Origin: Actinobacteria bacterium HGW-Actinobacteria-7
GTDB lineage: Bacteria > Actinomycetota > Coriobacteriia > Anaerosomatales > PHET01
DNA: 44,328 nt
Reading direction: 5' to 3'
Assembly: GCA_002841275.1 (NCBI GenBank)
Contig: PHET01000018.1
Coordinates: 1-44,328, forward strand
Shown: one piece after another, positions 30,422 through 37,291 of the stretch
Numbering within the stretch: the first letter of the stretch is position 1
How the letters are laid out: each line of letters opens with the position of its first letter
Notes under the pieces: model-generated
The model's database searches: none
Told to the model about the DNA's origin: nothing
What the model saw: only the letters and a program-made list of their open reading frames with translations
Program-made: the position numbers and the translations under genes

Positions 30422-30994
30422 ATGAAGGTAGTCGCCGTCAACGGTTCCGCACGCAGGAACGGCAACACCGCCATTCTCATCGAAGCCGCGCTCGAGCCCC
30501 TGCGCGCCGCTGGCCACGACTGTGAGGTCATCAACCTCGCCGGCAAGGACATCCGAGGCTGTACCGCCTGCGCCAAGTGCCGCGAGAAGGTCGACCGCAA
30601 GTGCCACGGCCGCAAGGACGACCTCAACCCCATGCTCGAGACGCTCTTCACCGCCGATGCGATCCTGCTGGGCAGCCCCACCTACTACGCCGATATCACC
30701 TCAGAGATGAAAGCCCTCATCGACCGAGCAGGCTACGTCTCCGGCGGTAACGGCAACCTCTTCGCCCGCAAGCCCGGCGCCGCCATCATCGCCGTGCGCC
30801 GAGCCGGCGGCATCCACGCGATGGACTCCATCAACCACTTCTTCCTCATCGGCGAGATGTTCGTCGTGGGCTCCACCTACTGGAACGTCGGATTCGGCGG
30901 CCCCAAGGGTGCGGTGTCCGAGGACGAAGAAGGCCTCAGAACCATGCGCCGCCTGGGCGAGAACATGTCCTGGCTGCTGGGCAAGCTCGCGTAA
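30422..30994 (+). CDS. NADPH-dependent FMN reductase / iron-sulfur flavoprotein
   Basis: 190 residues; CAAGGAGG before ATG 30422. Flavodoxin-like fold: FMN phosphate loop 'VNGSARRNGNTAIL', a compact cysteine motif 'CTACAKCREKVDRKC' (residues ~44-58) as in iron-sulfur flavoproteins, 'AILLGSPTYYADITSEMKAL' and 'GAAIIAVRRAGG'. It is likely a cytosolic electron-transfer flavoprotein or quinone reductase of an anaerobe. It is the last G+C-rich chromosomal gene before the cassette array. Confidence 0.85.
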   Translation: MKVVAVNGSARRNGNTAILIEAALEPLRAAGHDCEVINLAGKDIRGCTACAKCREKVDRKCHGRKDDLNPMLETLFTADAILLGSPTYYADITSEMKALIDRAGYVSGGNGNLFARKPGAAIIAVRRAGGIHAMDSINHFFLIGEMFVVGSTYWNVGFGGPKGAVSEDEEGLRTMRRLGENMSWLLGKLA

Positions 30995-31402
30995 GTACCC
31001 TGCCGAGAAGACCGGGCTGCTACCGAGTGCGGCCGCCGCTCGCGGGGATGCCGTGCTCAGACAGTCCTCGCCGGGGGCCCGCGGCGCTACGCGGCGCGCC
31101 ACTGGCGCCCCGCTACGCGCCTTCCCCGCCTGCGGAACTGCGCGCGGCACCCCCACGAGCGGCGGCGTACGTGGTTGCCCTAATGCCCCAGTACCGGAGC
31201 CTCTGAAGGGCATCTTCTCGTGCTGCGATCTTGTCGGCCTGGTTGTTCAGGTCCCTGGAATCCGTGGAGTGTCTCACCCGCGCTCGGGGGGTTATGCGGA
31301 CTGCGGATGACTGGACAGGCAATATGTGGCAGAGTGCAGGGCGGGGATAGGCAGACTGCGTTTATTGCGGGTATGCGGCTTACGCGATCTGGTGATGCAG
31401 GG
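30995..31402. other. gene-free region left of the cassette array
   Basis: About 400 bases without a convincing gene on either strand. The first half is extremely G+C-rich and contains a direct repeat CGCTACGCG at 31085-31093 and 31111-31119, with many GGCGC-type inverted pieces. The second half drops in G+C towards the array. No integrase or integrase remnant, tRNA or clear promoter could be recognised. Confidence 0.5.
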
Positions 31403-31409
31403 GTTAGGC
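31403..31409 (+). other. GTTAGGC recombination core at the left end of the array (attI-like boundary)
   Basis: GTTAGGC fits the integron core GTTRRRY exactly, and no attC stem precedes it. It stands 15 bases before the TTG of the first cassette gene, followed at once by CCATAGGAG, the gene's ribosome site. This is the expected appearance of the attI x attC junction. Whether the upstream sequence is a true attI cannot be told by eye. Confidence 0.5.
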
Positions 31410-31424
31410 CCATAGGAGTTTCGC

Positions 31425-32735
31425 TTGAACGCATCCTTCGAAATTGCATACGCCGCTGCGGCTGGACACCTGTGCCTGTTCACAGGAACGGGATTCTCAA
31501 AGGCGGTCACCAGTAACGCCGCACCTTCTTGGCAGGCCCTTCTTGAGTCAACATGCGAGGGTCTTCCGAATGAGGAGGGACTGAAGGCCGCCCTCTTCGA
31601 TCCTTCTGCGAAGAACAGGCTCGCTCTTGACGAAGCGGCGCAGGTCATTGCGATTGAACGTCAGAAGGCCGGACTTCCTGACATCCATGATGCTGTTGGC
31701 GAAATGATCGCTGGACTCGCTCCGTCTGGCGACAATTCCATGATTTCGGCGTTCTTGTCTGAGAATCGAATCCAGGTCATCACCACAAACTATGACAAGC
31801 TTCTTGAGGGTTTGGTCGTGCACGGAGACGTCAACTCCATCTGTCCGGGATTGCCGGTTCCCCGCGCAACCGCAGCGGTCAATGTCTACCACGTTCACGG
31901 ATCGACTGACTCCCCGGCCAACATGATAGTGACGTCCAACGACTACATGGCATTCATGCGGGGCGAATCCTTCTTCTCGCGGAAACTGAGCACGATTCTC
32001 TATGAGAACACAGTTGTGATCCTCGGATACTCACTAGGAGATGCGAACCTTCGCGCCATCTTGGGCGACTACAGAGGGTTCGCTCGTGAGCAACTAATTG
32101 GGGGCAACATCGTGCTTGTCTCCAAGGATGTCGTCGATCAGCATCTGAAGGACTACTACGCATCCTGCTACGGCATGAGGGTGATCGACGACATAGACAT
32201 TGACACTCTCTTTGCGTTCATCAGTGCTTCGATTCCTGCAGCCAAGGCCTCTGTAGAGTCTTCCATGTACGCAACTCGGAAACTGCTCGAGGAGAACGAA
32301 TTCTACGCAGACAGCTACTTGAAATCGCGTGTGTCCTTCTTTGAGATAGTGGCCTCGCTGGGGGCAATCGGAAGAAGCATTTGCAGCCCCGACGTCGTGT
32401 CTGCGTTGGGTGCGGTCATTGCTAAGAAGACCGAATTCACGGGTGTCAAGGATGCGTGGGTGCAGTATGACCATCTCGCAGAGTGGCTAATATACCTAGG
32501 AAGCATCTTGGAGATCGCCGGTACCTCTATGGAGCCCGTGTACCTACACGCAGTAAGGCAGTCTATGAGCACCATGTCGAAGGTGTTGTATTACGGTTTC
32601 TCATGGCAGGCCTACAAGACGTGGGATGCCACCTGGTTCGACATACTTGCACCAAATCGGCTCCTGATTCGCGATTACATCGCCGCCAACCTTGTCTACA
32701 AGGAAGATGCTCTTGAGATAGTCAACCGTGGCTAG
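31425..32735 (+). CDS. SIR2-like NAD-binding protein, probable antiphage NADase (cassette 1)
   Basis: 436 residues; TTG start with AGGAG six bases upstream. Prokaryotic SIR2 domain (residues ~10-265): 'LFTGTGFSKAV' (GTGFS 21-25) for NAD, 'TTNYD' (120-124), the active-site His in 'HVHGS' (156-160), and 'GYSLGDANLR' (201-210). The remaining ~170 residues are helical with no recognised domain. SIR2 proteins of this class deplete NAD+ on phage infection in DSR, Thoeris-like and related systems; activity here is inferred. The gene is A/T-richer than flanking chromosomal genes. Its stop codon lies one base before the attC R'' box. Confidence 0.85.
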   Translation: MNASFEIAYAAAAGHLCLFTGTGFSKAVTSNAAPSWQALLESTCEGLPNEEGLKAALFDPSAKNRLALDEAAQVIAIERQKAGLPDIHDAVGEMIAGLAPSGDNSMISAFLSENRIQVITTNYDKLLEGLVVHGDVNSICPGLPVPRATAAVNVYHVHGSTDSPANMIVTSNDYMAFMRGESFFSRKLSTILYENTVVILGYSLGDANLRAILGDYRGFAREQLIGGNIVLVSKDVVDQHLKDYYASCYGMRVIDDIDIDTLFAFISASIPAAKASVESSMYATRKLLEENEFYADSYLKSRVSFFEIVASLGAIGRSICSPDVVSALGAVIAKKTEFTGVKDAWVQYDHLAEWLIYLGSILEIAGTSMEPVYLHAVRQSMSTMSKVLYYGFSWQAYKTWDATWFDILAPNRLLIRDYIAANLVYKEDALEIVNRG

Positions 32736-32736
32736 G

Positions 32737-32821
32737 GCCTAACCCCGGCTTCGAGCAGACGGCGCAAGCGTTACGCTTCTGGATCTGGCTTGACCGCTGC
32801 TCAAGCCGAAACACGTTAGCC
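32737..32821 (+). other. attC site 1 (85 bp)
   Basis: R'' GCCTAAC (32737-32743) pairs with R' GTTAGCC (32815-32821). L'' CGGCTTCGAGCAG pairs with L' CTGCTCAAGCCG except for one extra C, the extrahelical base that is a hallmark of attC. The central region is a variable spacer containing AAGCGTTACGCTT, a further hairpin. It belongs to the same sequence family as the sites at 34259 and 37207. Confidence 0.88.
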
Positions 32822-32885
32822 AGACATACGAGGCGCTGAGTTTGATGTGAATGCCGTGCGGTAGCTTCTTGGGGGGAGAGGTCGC

Positions 32886-33428
32886 GTGGATCCAACAGAG
32901 AGGGTTCTATTCGCCGAGATCAATGAGCATCTCAGAGCGACGGACACCAAACACGTGCAGGTCTCGATTGGGTACTTGGGCGCAATGTCGATTGTTGCAT
33001 CGATTATTGCCCAGCGACCAAGTGAACTGACGACGAATAGTCTTGCGAATGTTATCGCCTATTCGCTGGTCATCGCCATCGGGATCGCGGCGTACTCCGC
33101 CCAAGAATGGTATCGGGCCTGGAAACTACACTACATCGACTGCGCTTGTGGCCTCATGTGCAAGTGCAAGATTAGTGATGACCATAGGCCTTCTTGGCTC
33201 AGGAGAGAGAAGGGGCAGTCAAAGGCCGCGGTCTCCCTTCCGTTCGTCCGCGGAAACTTCGACAACGCCTTGCACTACCTTACCGCTGCGTTCACCTTGG
33301 TGTTCGCGGGCCTACTCGGAGCCGTTCTCCTTGATCCATGGTCGCTGGGTTTCCTTGTTGTGGCGTTCGTTGCGGATCTCATGGTCTTGGTGCTTGTGTT
33401 GATCCGGTTCCATGACCTTGATGCGTAG
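32886..33428 (+). CDS. four-TM membrane protein of unknown function (cassette 2)
   Basis: 180 residues; GTG start with a GGGGGGAGAGG ribosome site. Two transmembrane pairs: ~44-63 (VQVSIGYLGAMSIVASIIAQ), ~75-95 (ANVIAYSLVIAIGIAAYSAQ), then a Cys-containing soluble loop ('DCACGLMCKCK') with basic residues, then ~130-150 and ~155-175. The hairpin arrangement is that of small membrane effectors in some defence modules, but no family is recognised. The N-terminus MDPTER resembles that of the next cassette (MDPAER). Confidence 0.6.
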   Translation: MDPTERVLFAEINEHLRATDTKHVQVSIGYLGAMSIVASIIAQRPSELTTNSLANVIAYSLVIAIGIAAYSAQEWYRAWKLHYIDCACGLMCKCKISDDHRPSWLRREKGQSKAAVSLPFVRGNFDNALHYLTAAFTLVFAGLLGAVLLDPWSLGFLVVAFVADLMVLVLVLIRFHDLDA

Positions 33429-33460: not shown

Positions 33461-33544
33461 GGCTAACAAGGGCATCAATCGACTTCGCAAGTCCTCAGTT
33501 ACCATGGAAATCATCGGGCGCGAGTCATGCCCAACACGTTGGAC
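33461..33544 (+). other. attC site 2 (84 bp)
   Basis: R'' GGCTAAC and R' GTTGGAC (33538-33544, a fit to GTTRRRY) flank L''/L' arms built on GGGCAT...ATGCCC. Internally it is nearly identical to the site at 35393, including GACTTCGCAAGTCCTC and TTACCATGGAA, but is one base shorter in L'', so its stem is slightly decayed. Confidence 0.82.
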
Positions 33545-34258: not shown

Positions 34259-34343
34259 GTCTAGCAAAGGCATCGAGTAGACGGCGCAAGGTAGACTGCG
34301 GAAAAGAGGGTGTGGGCCGCTGCTCATGCCTAACACGTTAGAC
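34259..34343 (+). other. attC site 3 (85 bp)
   Basis: R'' GTCTAGC (one base off consensus) and R' GTTAGAC (34337-34343, full consensus). L'' AGGCATCGAGTAG pairs with L' CTGCTCATGCCT with an extrahelical C after AGGCAT. It shares GTAGACGGCGCAAGG- and GGCCGCTGCTCATGCC-type blocks with the sites at 32737 and 37207. Confidence 0.86.
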
Positions 34344-34360: not shown

Positions 34361-35398
34361 TTGGCCGGCTTCAAGACATTCGGCACCTCGATTGTCTATC
34401 CGCCATCGATTGACCCCGGAGTTCGGGCAGTCGGCGTTCCTCATGTCTGGCGCGCATCTTCTGCCCCTGACCCTACACGGCGCTTCTGGTGTGACGACGA
34501 GGGTCTGCGGAGTTGGCACTCACGCCCACAACCGACTGGCCATGCAGATCCGTTCGGCCTGCAGCCTGCAAGGCAGCTCGTCGTTCGGGCCCGCCACCTT
34601 GAGACGGTCGACCACGTGGTCTCGCTGATTCACTGTGGTTGCCTCGCGGCATATCCCGACCTCTTTCAGAACCGCGAGAGTAGTTTTGTGTACGACTTGG
34701 AGGACGCTGCGGGCGATGAAGTGCCGCCATCTTCAATTGCTGACGGGTTTCAGTGCTTCGACCAGGCAAGTATCGGCGTTGAAGCGGCCGCCCGCGCCTG
34801 GGGCAATTCCGGCGCTGAATACGCGCTACTGAAATACCGCTTCAGTCTTGAGCGCGACTGGTTCACTCCACACTCCGCGGCTCCTCGCCATCGCGACATC
34901 TTCGCCTACAAGTACGACGATCCTCGAAGCCAGGTCAACGCGGCGTTTGCAATTGTCGCCGCCTACTCAGTAATCGAGGAGCTTGGGCTCGAAGTGCGAT
35001 CCAGCCAGAAGAAGCCCCGGTTCCTCAAGGATTCCGGCAATGCTTGGAATCCTGAAGTACTTGATGACATCAACGCCCGCTTGGAGGCGGCCGGCATCCC
35101 GGCCGATTCAACCGTCGGTTGGCTGTGGCGAGGATCGCGAACCGATGTTGAGCGTGAAATCGATCCGAAGCTTGGCAAGCAGGCGGAATGGAATCGAAGA
35201 TTCGGTACACGCGACAGAATGCTCGCGCTAGCGGACGCCATCCACTACGTCAGCTGGTTGCGAAACTACATCGCCGCGCACAAGTTGCGGGCTATAGCCA
35301 CTGAGGTATCGCCGTATGAGGTTCATAACGCACAGATGGTAGCCCGGCGAGTTCTCCTCGGCTTTCTCGGCCTATGGAACCGTTTGGTCTCGGGCTAA
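34361..35398 (+). CDS. HEPN-like protein of unknown function (cassette 4)
   Basis: 345 residues; TTG start, GTGGGGGACGG upstream. No transmembrane segment. The first ~200 residues are mixed ('YPDLFQNRESSFVYDLED', 'QVNAAFAIVAAYSVIEELGLEV'). The C-terminal ~100 residues are helical and contain R-N-Y-I-A-A-H (R301-H307), i.e. RN-x4-H, inside 'VSWLRNYIAAHKLR', which fits the RX4-6H motif of HEPN ribonucleases. The HEPN call rests on this motif and helical context only. The stop codon lies inside the following attC R'' box, usual for cassettes. Confidence 0.6.
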   Translation: MAGFKTFGTSIVYPPSIDPGVRAVGVPHVWRASSAPDPTRRFWCDDEGLRSWHSRPQPTGHADPFGLQPARQLVVRARHLETVDHVVSLIHCGCLAAYPDLFQNRESSFVYDLEDAAGDEVPPSSIADGFQCFDQASIGVEAAARAWGNSGAEYALLKYRFSLERDWFTPHSAAPRHRDIFAYKYDDPRSQVNAAFAIVAAYSVIEELGLEVRSSQKKPRFLKDSGNAWNPEVLDDINARLEAAGIPADSTVGWLWRGSRTDVEREIDPKLGKQAEWNRRFGTRDRMLALADAIHYVSWLRNYIAAHKLRAIATEVSPYEVHNAQMVARRVLLGFLGLWNRLVSG

Positions 35399-35477
35399 CA
35401 AGGGCGTCGACTCGACTTCGCAAGTCCTCGGTTACCATGGAAGTCATCGGGCGCGAGTCATGCCCAACACGTTAGCC
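35393..35477 (+). other. attC site 4 (85 bp)
   Basis: R'' GGCTAAC (35393-35399) and R' GTTAGCC (35471-35477) are exact reverse complements. L'' GGGCGTCGACTCG pairs with L' CGAGTCATGCCC with an unpaired C after GGGCGT and one G-T type mismatch. The gene's TAA stop is embedded in R''. It is the best-preserved site of the array together with site 1, and is nearly identical to the site at 33461. Confidence 0.9.
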
Positions 35478-36246: not shown

Positions 36247-36328
36247 GGCTGGCAAGAAGCGGATCGATCCGACTTCGCTAGTGCTCAGCCACAATGTGAG
36301 TCAACGAGCGCGGGTCCGCCAGATAGGC
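36247..36328 (+). other. attC site 5, degenerate (82 bp)
   Basis: It aligns along its length with sites 2 and 4 (shared CGACTTCGC, CATGTGAGTCA-like and AGCGCGG blocks), but R'' reads GGCTGGC and R' reads GATAGGC, so both core boxes are mutated. The stem arms (GCGGATC.. with ..GGTCCGC) pair only in part. It is probably a decayed, non-recombining site. Confidence 0.6.
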
Positions 36329-36407
36329 AGGGAAGACGGGAAGGCCAAATCACAGGGGTACGCGCTAGACTCGATTTGGAAGTGCAGCCGTTCAGAGGGG
36401 GACTTTG

Positions 36408-37181
36408 ATGGCGGTCTATCAGGACAAGGCGCGCGAGCGCGTCGCGAAGGGGATTCGCAAGTTCAAGAGCGTCGCGCAGAAGGCTCGCACGAATGGTGCG
36501 AAAGAGAGCGACACGCGCCTTATCGTCTCCTCGATCGTGAGCGATGTCTTTGGATGGGACGCCTTCAACAACCTGACCGGCGAGTATCGCATCAAAGGCA
36601 GCTTCGCTGATTTCGTCATCCGAAAGGATGGCAAGCACTTCGTCATCATCGAGGTCAAGGCGATTTCGTCCAAGCTCAACGACAAGCATCTCTATCAGGC
36701 CGTCTCTTACGCTGCGAGCGAGGGCGTCGAATGGGTCATCCTCACCAACGGCGCTGAGTGGCAGCTGCATCGGGTTCTGTTCAACAAGCCGGTTGAGAAC
36801 GAGCTGGTCTTCGAAGTCAGCCTGCTCGACGAGGACATGAAGCCCAAGGACAAGGTTGACCTTCTGTATCTCCTGACGCCGGAAGCGCAGCGCAAGGATG
36901 AGCTCGAAGTGTTCTACCAACGCACGCGAGCTCTGGCGTCGAACAACATCGCCAAGCTCCTGCTCAGCGAGTCAGTACTTACCAAGTTGCGCGCTGAAAT
37001 CAAGGCGGACTCGGGCAATCGCATCGCACTCGACGAACTCGCGGAGATCCTGGTCGGATGTGTGATTCGTCAGGATGCTCAGGGCGATCACGTCAACAAG
37101 CAGCTGAAGCGTGTCCAGAAGGCGGCCAAGACGCCGCGCAAGCCGGCGGCCGTTTGTCCACCGGCTATGGCGACGGAATAG
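36408..37181 (+). CDS. standalone HsdR N-terminal-type PD-(D/E)XK nuclease (cassette 6)
   Basis: 257 residues from ATG 36408, with GAGGGGG six bases upstream. Type I restriction R-protein N-terminal (HSDR_N) fold: 'DTRLIVSSIVSDVFGWDAFN', catalytic D68 in 'GSFADFVI', E82 and K84 in 'VIIEVKA', then 'LYQAVSYAASEGVEWVILTNGAEW'. No helicase domain follows, and no HsdM or HsdS is nearby. A role in restriction-like defence or nucleic-acid cleavage is inferred. The C-terminus ends in a basic Lys/Pro-rich tail. The leader between attC and gene is longer (80 bases) than in other cassettes. Confidence 0.8.
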   Translation: MAVYQDKARERVAKGIRKFKSVAQKARTNGAKESDTRLIVSSIVSDVFGWDAFNNLTGEYRIKGSFADFVIRKDGKHFVIIEVKAISSKLNDKHLYQAVSYAASEGVEWVILTNGAEWQLHRVLFNKPVENELVFEVSLLDEDMKPKDKVDLLYLLTPEAQRKDELEVFYQRTRALASNNIAKLLLSESVLTKLRAEIKADSGNRIALDELAEILVGCVIRQDAQGDHVNKQLKRVQKAAKTPRKPAAVCPPAMATE

Positions 37182-37206: not shown

Positions 37207-37291
37207 GCCTAGCCCCGGAATCGAGCAGACGGTACAAGGTAGGATGTAGAAGGGACGGTTTGGGCCGTCGCTCATGCGTAGCACGTCACGT
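37207..37291 (+). other. attC site 6 (85 bp, partly decayed right end)
   Basis: R'' GCCTAGC (37207-37213), then CGGAATCGAGCAGACGG, and on the right GGCCGTCGCTCATGCG as in sites 1 and 3. The aligned R' is GTCACGT (37285-37291), which departs from GTTRRRY; GTTTGAC at 37290-37296 is an alternative core. Alignment to sites 1 and 3 gives exactly 85 bp. Confidence 0.7.

Follow-up and report, generated by a model that had tools for sequence, protein, structure and literature searches.

The window, the 44,328-nucleotide stretch of contig PHET01000018.1 of Actinobacteria bacterium HGW-Actinobacteria-7 that was analysed here, carries a gene for a SIR2-family protein at the left end of a cluster of integron recombination (attC) sites. 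The features of the locus are as follows.

31403..31409, + strand: left cassette boundary, an R' type core GTTAGGC, 22 nt before the start codon
31414..31418, + strand: ribosome-binding site AGGAG, read in the sequence; cassette relatives have the same layout
31425..32735, + strand: SIR2-family gene, TTG start, 436 amino acids, complete open reading frame including the stop codon
31425..32252, + strand: SIR2 NADase-type domain, residues 1-276 (Pfam, fold match and invariant motifs)
31788-31790, + strand: catalytic Asn122 (invariant motifs)
31896-31898, + strand: catalytic His158 (invariant motifs)
32196..32732, + strand: conserved helical C-terminal domain, residues 258-436 (AlphaFold2 and alignment), a proposed infection sensor
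32737..32821, + strand: attC of the SIR2 cassette (covariance model 81.9 bits; bottom-strand folding z -3.3)
33461..33544, + strand: attC of the second cassette (covariance model 83.1 bits)
34259..34343, + strand: attC of the third cassette (covariance model 94 bits)
35393..35477, + strand: attC of the fourth cassette (covariance model 95.3 bits)
36247..36324, + strand: degenerate attC (covariance model 25.3 bits)
37207..37290, + strand: last recognised attC of the array (covariance model 68.7 bits)

The SIR2 gene has the properties of an integron gene cassette, being bracketed by complementary R' and R'' cores and followed by a foldable attC. The R'' core GCCTAAC, one base past the stop codon, is the exact reverse complement of the GTTAGGC at 31403-31409, which is the relation expected between the two termini of a cassette that circularises. 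Within the family, 4 of 33 loci show a perfect R'/R'' pair around the gene, compared with 4 of 1,056 mismatched locus pairs; together with the matches to the attC model, this places the cassette status above chance. The attC covariance model was built from five sites (90% paired cells) and its covariation score was reached by none of 500 shuffles. It recognised six sites in the window (E 3e-29 to 3e-6, five of the six having also built the model) and 24 in the genome as a whole, distributed over three contigs: that of the window (6), C10 (10) and C6 (8). The model found no attC upstream of the SIR2 gene in 30900-31403, consistent with the proposal of the first-pass annotation that this is the first cassette. 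That proposal holds for the array; it does not extend to the privileged first position of an integron, as no integrase gene (intI) accompanies the array. Between an FMN reductase gene and the array lies a large imperfect inverted repeat with 29-nt arms (31032-31166), pieces similar to which occur on contigs C11 and C6.

Neither intI nor attI was recognised beside the array in the window, which thus does not hold a complete integron; the array is a cluster of attC sites without an adjacent integrase, flanked by ordinary genes. The sole IntI above the cut-off in the genome is intact (478 bits) and is encoded near the end of another contig, C19 (L012, 7941-8975). The covariance model recognised no attC in the last 9.6 kb of C19, and no copy of the left flank of the array, which would mark attI, was found near this intI. 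Contig C10 begins inside an attC and, with IntI lying near the end of C19, the two contigs may be adjacent in the genome. A scan of 30950-32900 detected no sigma-70-like promoter, although the scan covers one sigma factor type and is not fitted to this host. The absence of a recognisable promoter in front of the gene suggests that the SIR2 copy may be silent here. The further expectation that a first cassette would be the best expressed is unsupported, since the integrase gene is on a different contig and neither attI nor a sigma-70-like promoter could be recognised at the array.

The open reading frame comprises 436 intact codons, and its TTG start aligns with the starts of its relatives. The sole Pfam match of the protein is to SIR2_2 (PF13289), over residues 118-253 (72 bits, E 7e-20; cut-off 24.5 bits). 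The complete set of SIR2 NAD-site motifs that had been claimed for the protein is indeed present (TGTGFS, TTNYD, HVHGS and GYSLGD) and varies across the 33 aligned family members only by a few conservative changes, none of which is at a catalytic residue; Asn122 and His158 are invariant in all 33. The protein contains five cysteines and no zinc-module CxxC motif, while a canonical sirtuin has two CxxC pairs. An Rfam scan returned nothing useful. The AlphaFold2 model of the whole protein, derived from a 33-sequence alignment, has a pLDDT of 87.9. Superposition of the predicted fold of residues 1-276 on DSR2 gave a Z score of 23.3 (2.7 A over 245 residues), followed by KomC (22.8), ThsA (22.6), Avs5 (17.8), human FAM118B (16.2) and SIR2-HerA (13 to 15.7). 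The canonical sirtuin 3jwp, with a Z score of 12.7, is far below the defence NADases.

DSR2, KomC and ThsA, the solved effectors nearest to it in structure, are components of anti-phage systems (PMC10981675). By sequence alignment, with positions counted by hand, Asn122 and His158 correspond to DSR2 Asn133 and His171, respectively, the latter being the residue altered in the DSR2 H171A structures. The window protein and DSR2 share the SIR2 NADase fold, the matching Asn and His and, probably, the union of effector and sensor in one protein. DSR2, however, is much longer, at about 1000 residues, and recognises the phage tail tube protein through a large C-terminal part, whereas the C-terminal domain of the window protein has only 179 residues and is unrelated in sequence. 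The NCBIfam equivalogs for DSR1 and DSR2 (profiles of about 1200 residues requiring 1400 bits) scored 23.2 and 16.5 bits, through the SIR2 part only. ThsA, from Thoeris, resembles the window protein in total length and in combining a SIR2 domain with a C-terminal domain. In ThsA the latter is a nucleotide-sensing SLOG domain, and the partner of the protein is the TIR protein ThsB. By contrast, no SLOG domain was detected in the window protein, in which the match to the ThsA profile stops at residue 217; thsB is absent from the cassettes of the window, and the relatives have no conserved partner gene. KomC shares the fold of the SIR2 domain but has about 280 residues, with little beyond that domain, and acts in a complex with KomB (KomBC), while the window gene, whose relatives have no conserved neighbour, appears to stand alone and encodes its own C-terminal domain. 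Regarding SIR2-HerA (Nezha), no HerA helicase gene adjoins the SIR2 gene, the relatives share no common neighbour and the next cassette has no Pfam match. With the PADLOC model PDC-S25, a 517-residue profile, the match is confined to a best stretch at residues 118-215 (E 6e-25).

The C-terminal region had been described as helical and uncharacterised, and both attributes were upheld: it is helical in the model and displays neither a Pfam match nor a convincing match to any family or fold. Modelled alone, the domain adopts a confident fold (AlphaFold2 pLDDT 93), and its invariant residues among the aligned members include A344, W345, Q347, Y348, W394, A396, W400, W404 and N411. A fold search of the PDB with this domain returned nothing at E below 0.001, the best Z score, 7.8 to helical arrays, being within the range of common arrangements, which is no proof that the fold is new, and a BFVD structure search gave no significant match. 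A separate PHROG exists for the C-terminal part alone. As the domain matches nothing known, its proposed role as the infection sensor derives by analogy only.

The full-length family is already catalogued as PHROG 7567, which the window protein matches from residue 3 to 420 on positions 3-419 of 434 (E 4e-136), as do all 33 members. That PHROG has no recorded function, and the NCBI label is "SIR2 family (deacylase)". The suggestion that the gene represents a new family member needs qualification, since PHROG 7567 already covers the family in full. The 'SIR2 family protein' that RefSeq records on P1-like phage-plasmids belongs to this same full-length family (one P1-plasmid homologue is WP_023156640), while the window member is a chromosomal integron cassette. 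No published report naming or testing the family was found, the system lists of Darracq 2025, Getz 2025 and Kieffer 2025 lying outside this comparison. A tblastn search matched 190 plasmid records, of which 124, mostly from E. coli, covered at least 80% of the query. An alignment-based scan recovered relatives at 45 genome loci, of which about 33 are complete or almost complete in length, and on 24 viral contigs; a query with the single protein had returned nothing from either the genome or the viral contigs. The aligned members are 39-55% identical to the window protein across its whole length. Nearly all relatives are in Proteobacteria, and no full-length relative was present among 395 further genomes from the phylum to which the window belongs, indicating that this copy was probably acquired from afar, with Proteobacteria the most likely source.

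The relatives are single genes and no neighbour is conserved across the loci, from which the gene appears to be autonomous. In three Proteus loci, L013 (11097-12008), L032 and L036, a gene encoding 303 amino acids shares eight bases with the beginning of the SIR2 gene. A two-gene system with this partner was rejected as a general arrangement, as the gene is common to these three loci only. In three relatives the SIR2 and C-terminal parts occupy separate frames (L045, 6001-7304; L047, 5986-7286; L073, 3509-4812), the split in L073 falling at a run of seven A. The break positions differ between the three, which argues against programmed frameshifting and makes plain frameshifts likelier. The existence of frameshifted copies would be understandable if the gene can impose a cost.

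In P1-like phage-plasmids the SIR2 gene lies between mat and lxc-ulx-darB. The same slot in P1 itself is occupied by the EcoP1 restriction genes res and mod, and res-mod is listed among the regions that vary between P1-like elements (PMC9603915). One allele group of the SIR2 gene was found in 64 of 5426 complete E. coli genomes, with 66 of its 67 places on plasmids; 699 genomes contain the lxc-ulx backbone and 84 contain P1 res. Nine P1-like plasmids, sampled at even steps down the ranking, held in this slot the SIR2 gene (three plasmids), GNAT (two), EAL/HTH (two), RelA/SpoT (one) and IS1-flanked host genes (one). The mat-lxc slot is thus a site for variable cargo that often, and not only, holds defence genes; GNAT and EAL proteins, for example, have no known defence role, which weakens the slot as evidence for the anti-phage reading. 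The RelA/SpoT-domain gene found in the SIR2 slot of one P1-like plasmid (L142, 5335-6462) is another candidate defence gene.

Elsewhere, relatives adjoin the type I restriction genes hsdS-hsdR (L022), the Gabija genes gajA-gajB (L033), a DRT3 reverse transcriptase with its partner (L045), a gene for a TIR protein (L019) and one for a second SIR2 protein (L023), these neighbours having been noted locus by locus, without a matched control set. Several other relatives sit singly beside murA, lepA or similar housekeeping genes, which counts against a defence role. The family does not, however, show the pattern that the first-pass annotation had named as refuting its reading, homologues consistently in non-defence housekeeping contexts.

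The cassette form is not confined to the window and is supported, with varying strength, in as many as six further genomes. In three of these, an Ectothiorhodospiraceae MAG (L017), an unclassified MAG (L021) and Lacimicrobium (L026), the gene lies between perfect R'/R'' cores, with R' 22 nt ahead of the TTG start; the Lacimicrobium pair extends into the stop codon and has no clear attC behind it. Photobacterium indicum (L019) and Colwellia (L023) show attC-like repeats behind successive genes and a similar distance from R' to the TTG start. Vreelandella (L029) shares this left end, with weak attC evidence. Taken singly, the candidate attC sites of the window, L017, L021 and L026 have strong foldability, and those of L019, L023 and L029 weak foldability. 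An integron integrase above the cut-off is encoded in the genomes of L017, L019 and L026; the only integrase in the L023 genome is damaged. The cassette label requires three changes on the family tree, and a single clade was rejected with labels that had been set after inspection of the loci, arguing against one common cassette origin and for repeated capture by integrons, or for movement of the gene out of them again. Anti-phage integron cassettes have been reported (Darracq 2025, Getz 2025 and Kieffer 2025, as cited in PMC12444791), and these resemble the locus described here in placing a defence gene within an attC-bounded cassette.

The predicted fold, the catalytic residues and the contexts of the relatives strongly support the original prediction of a mobile anti-phage NADase. 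The gene is probably a single-gene anti-phage system in an integron cassette, in which a SIR2 NADase under the control of its C-terminal domain depletes NAD+ upon infection. The most parsimonious mechanism would be that of an abortive-infection NADase which, like the far larger DSR2, combines effector and sensor in a single chain. In the resting cell the N-terminal SIR2 domain, a predicted NAD+ hydrolase, would be kept inactive by the helical C-terminal domain or by the oligomeric state of the protein. Recognition by the C-terminal domain of a phage component, or of a phage-caused change, would then activate the enzyme, and the resulting loss of NAD+ would cause the infected cell to stop growing or to die before phage release. 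It is very improbable that the protein is instead a conventional sirtuin, which would use NAD to deacylate proteins in a housekeeping or regulatory capacity. While RefSeq names the E. coli members 'SIR2 family NAD-dependent protein deacylase' and some relatives do reside among housekeeping genes, the lack of the zinc-module motif, a fold that resembles the defence NADases much more closely than it does a genuine sirtuin, and a scattered occurrence on mobile elements with no fixed genomic place are at odds with such a function.

The identity of the carriers (P1-like phage-plasmids, viral contigs and integrons) would suit a gene directed mainly at plasmids, satellites or rival prophages to the benefit of its own mobile element. 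This is considered unlikely, if less so than a sirtuin, as the nearest effectors of solved structure (DSR2, KomC and ThsA) all come from anti-phage systems (PMC10981675) and relatives also adjoin chromosomal defence genes. A different view, which is compatible with the single-gene anti-phage system favoured above, accepts the defence family as real and regards the window copy as silent cargo in an orphaned attC array. The window's lack of integrase, attI and promoter match, together with its degenerate attC sites, lends this some credence, but the frame of 436 codons is intact and retains all the invariant residues, and the promoter scan was not fitted to the host; silence of this copy is therefore possible but doubtful. 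The fuller version of the preferred reading, that of a stand-alone anti-phage NADase with a new C-terminal sensor, a fixed distance from the ribosome-binding site and start codon to the recombination site, and three independent routes of spread (integron cassettes in several bacterial groups, the P1-like restriction slot and chromosomal defence neighbourhoods), is put forward tentatively, with the balance leaning slightly against the complete set of claims. Were it true, the fixed spacing would provide for translation wherever the cassette lands.

If the anti-phage role is correct, the gene would add a SIR2 defence family of single genes which the PADLOC and NCBIfam searches made here detect via the generic domain only, although it is frequent on the P1-like phage-plasmids of E. 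coli. Its small conserved C-terminal domain would then be a place to seek a new mode of phage sensing, and repeated capture of the candidate defence gene by integrons would make the idea of integrons as defence libraries testable outside Vibrio.

Other cassettes of this genome also merit mention. The second cassette of the window (32886-33428) encodes a 180-amino-acid membrane protein with a very weak SLATT-like PADLOC match (E 0.011), and a further cassette gene at 36405-37181 encodes an orphan HsdR_N-like PD-(D/E)XK protein (PF13588, E 2e-8), possibly a defence gene. On contig C10 the ten-attC array extends over most of the contig (L110, 1-11830), and its cassettes include small paired genes that resemble toxin-antitoxin pairs.
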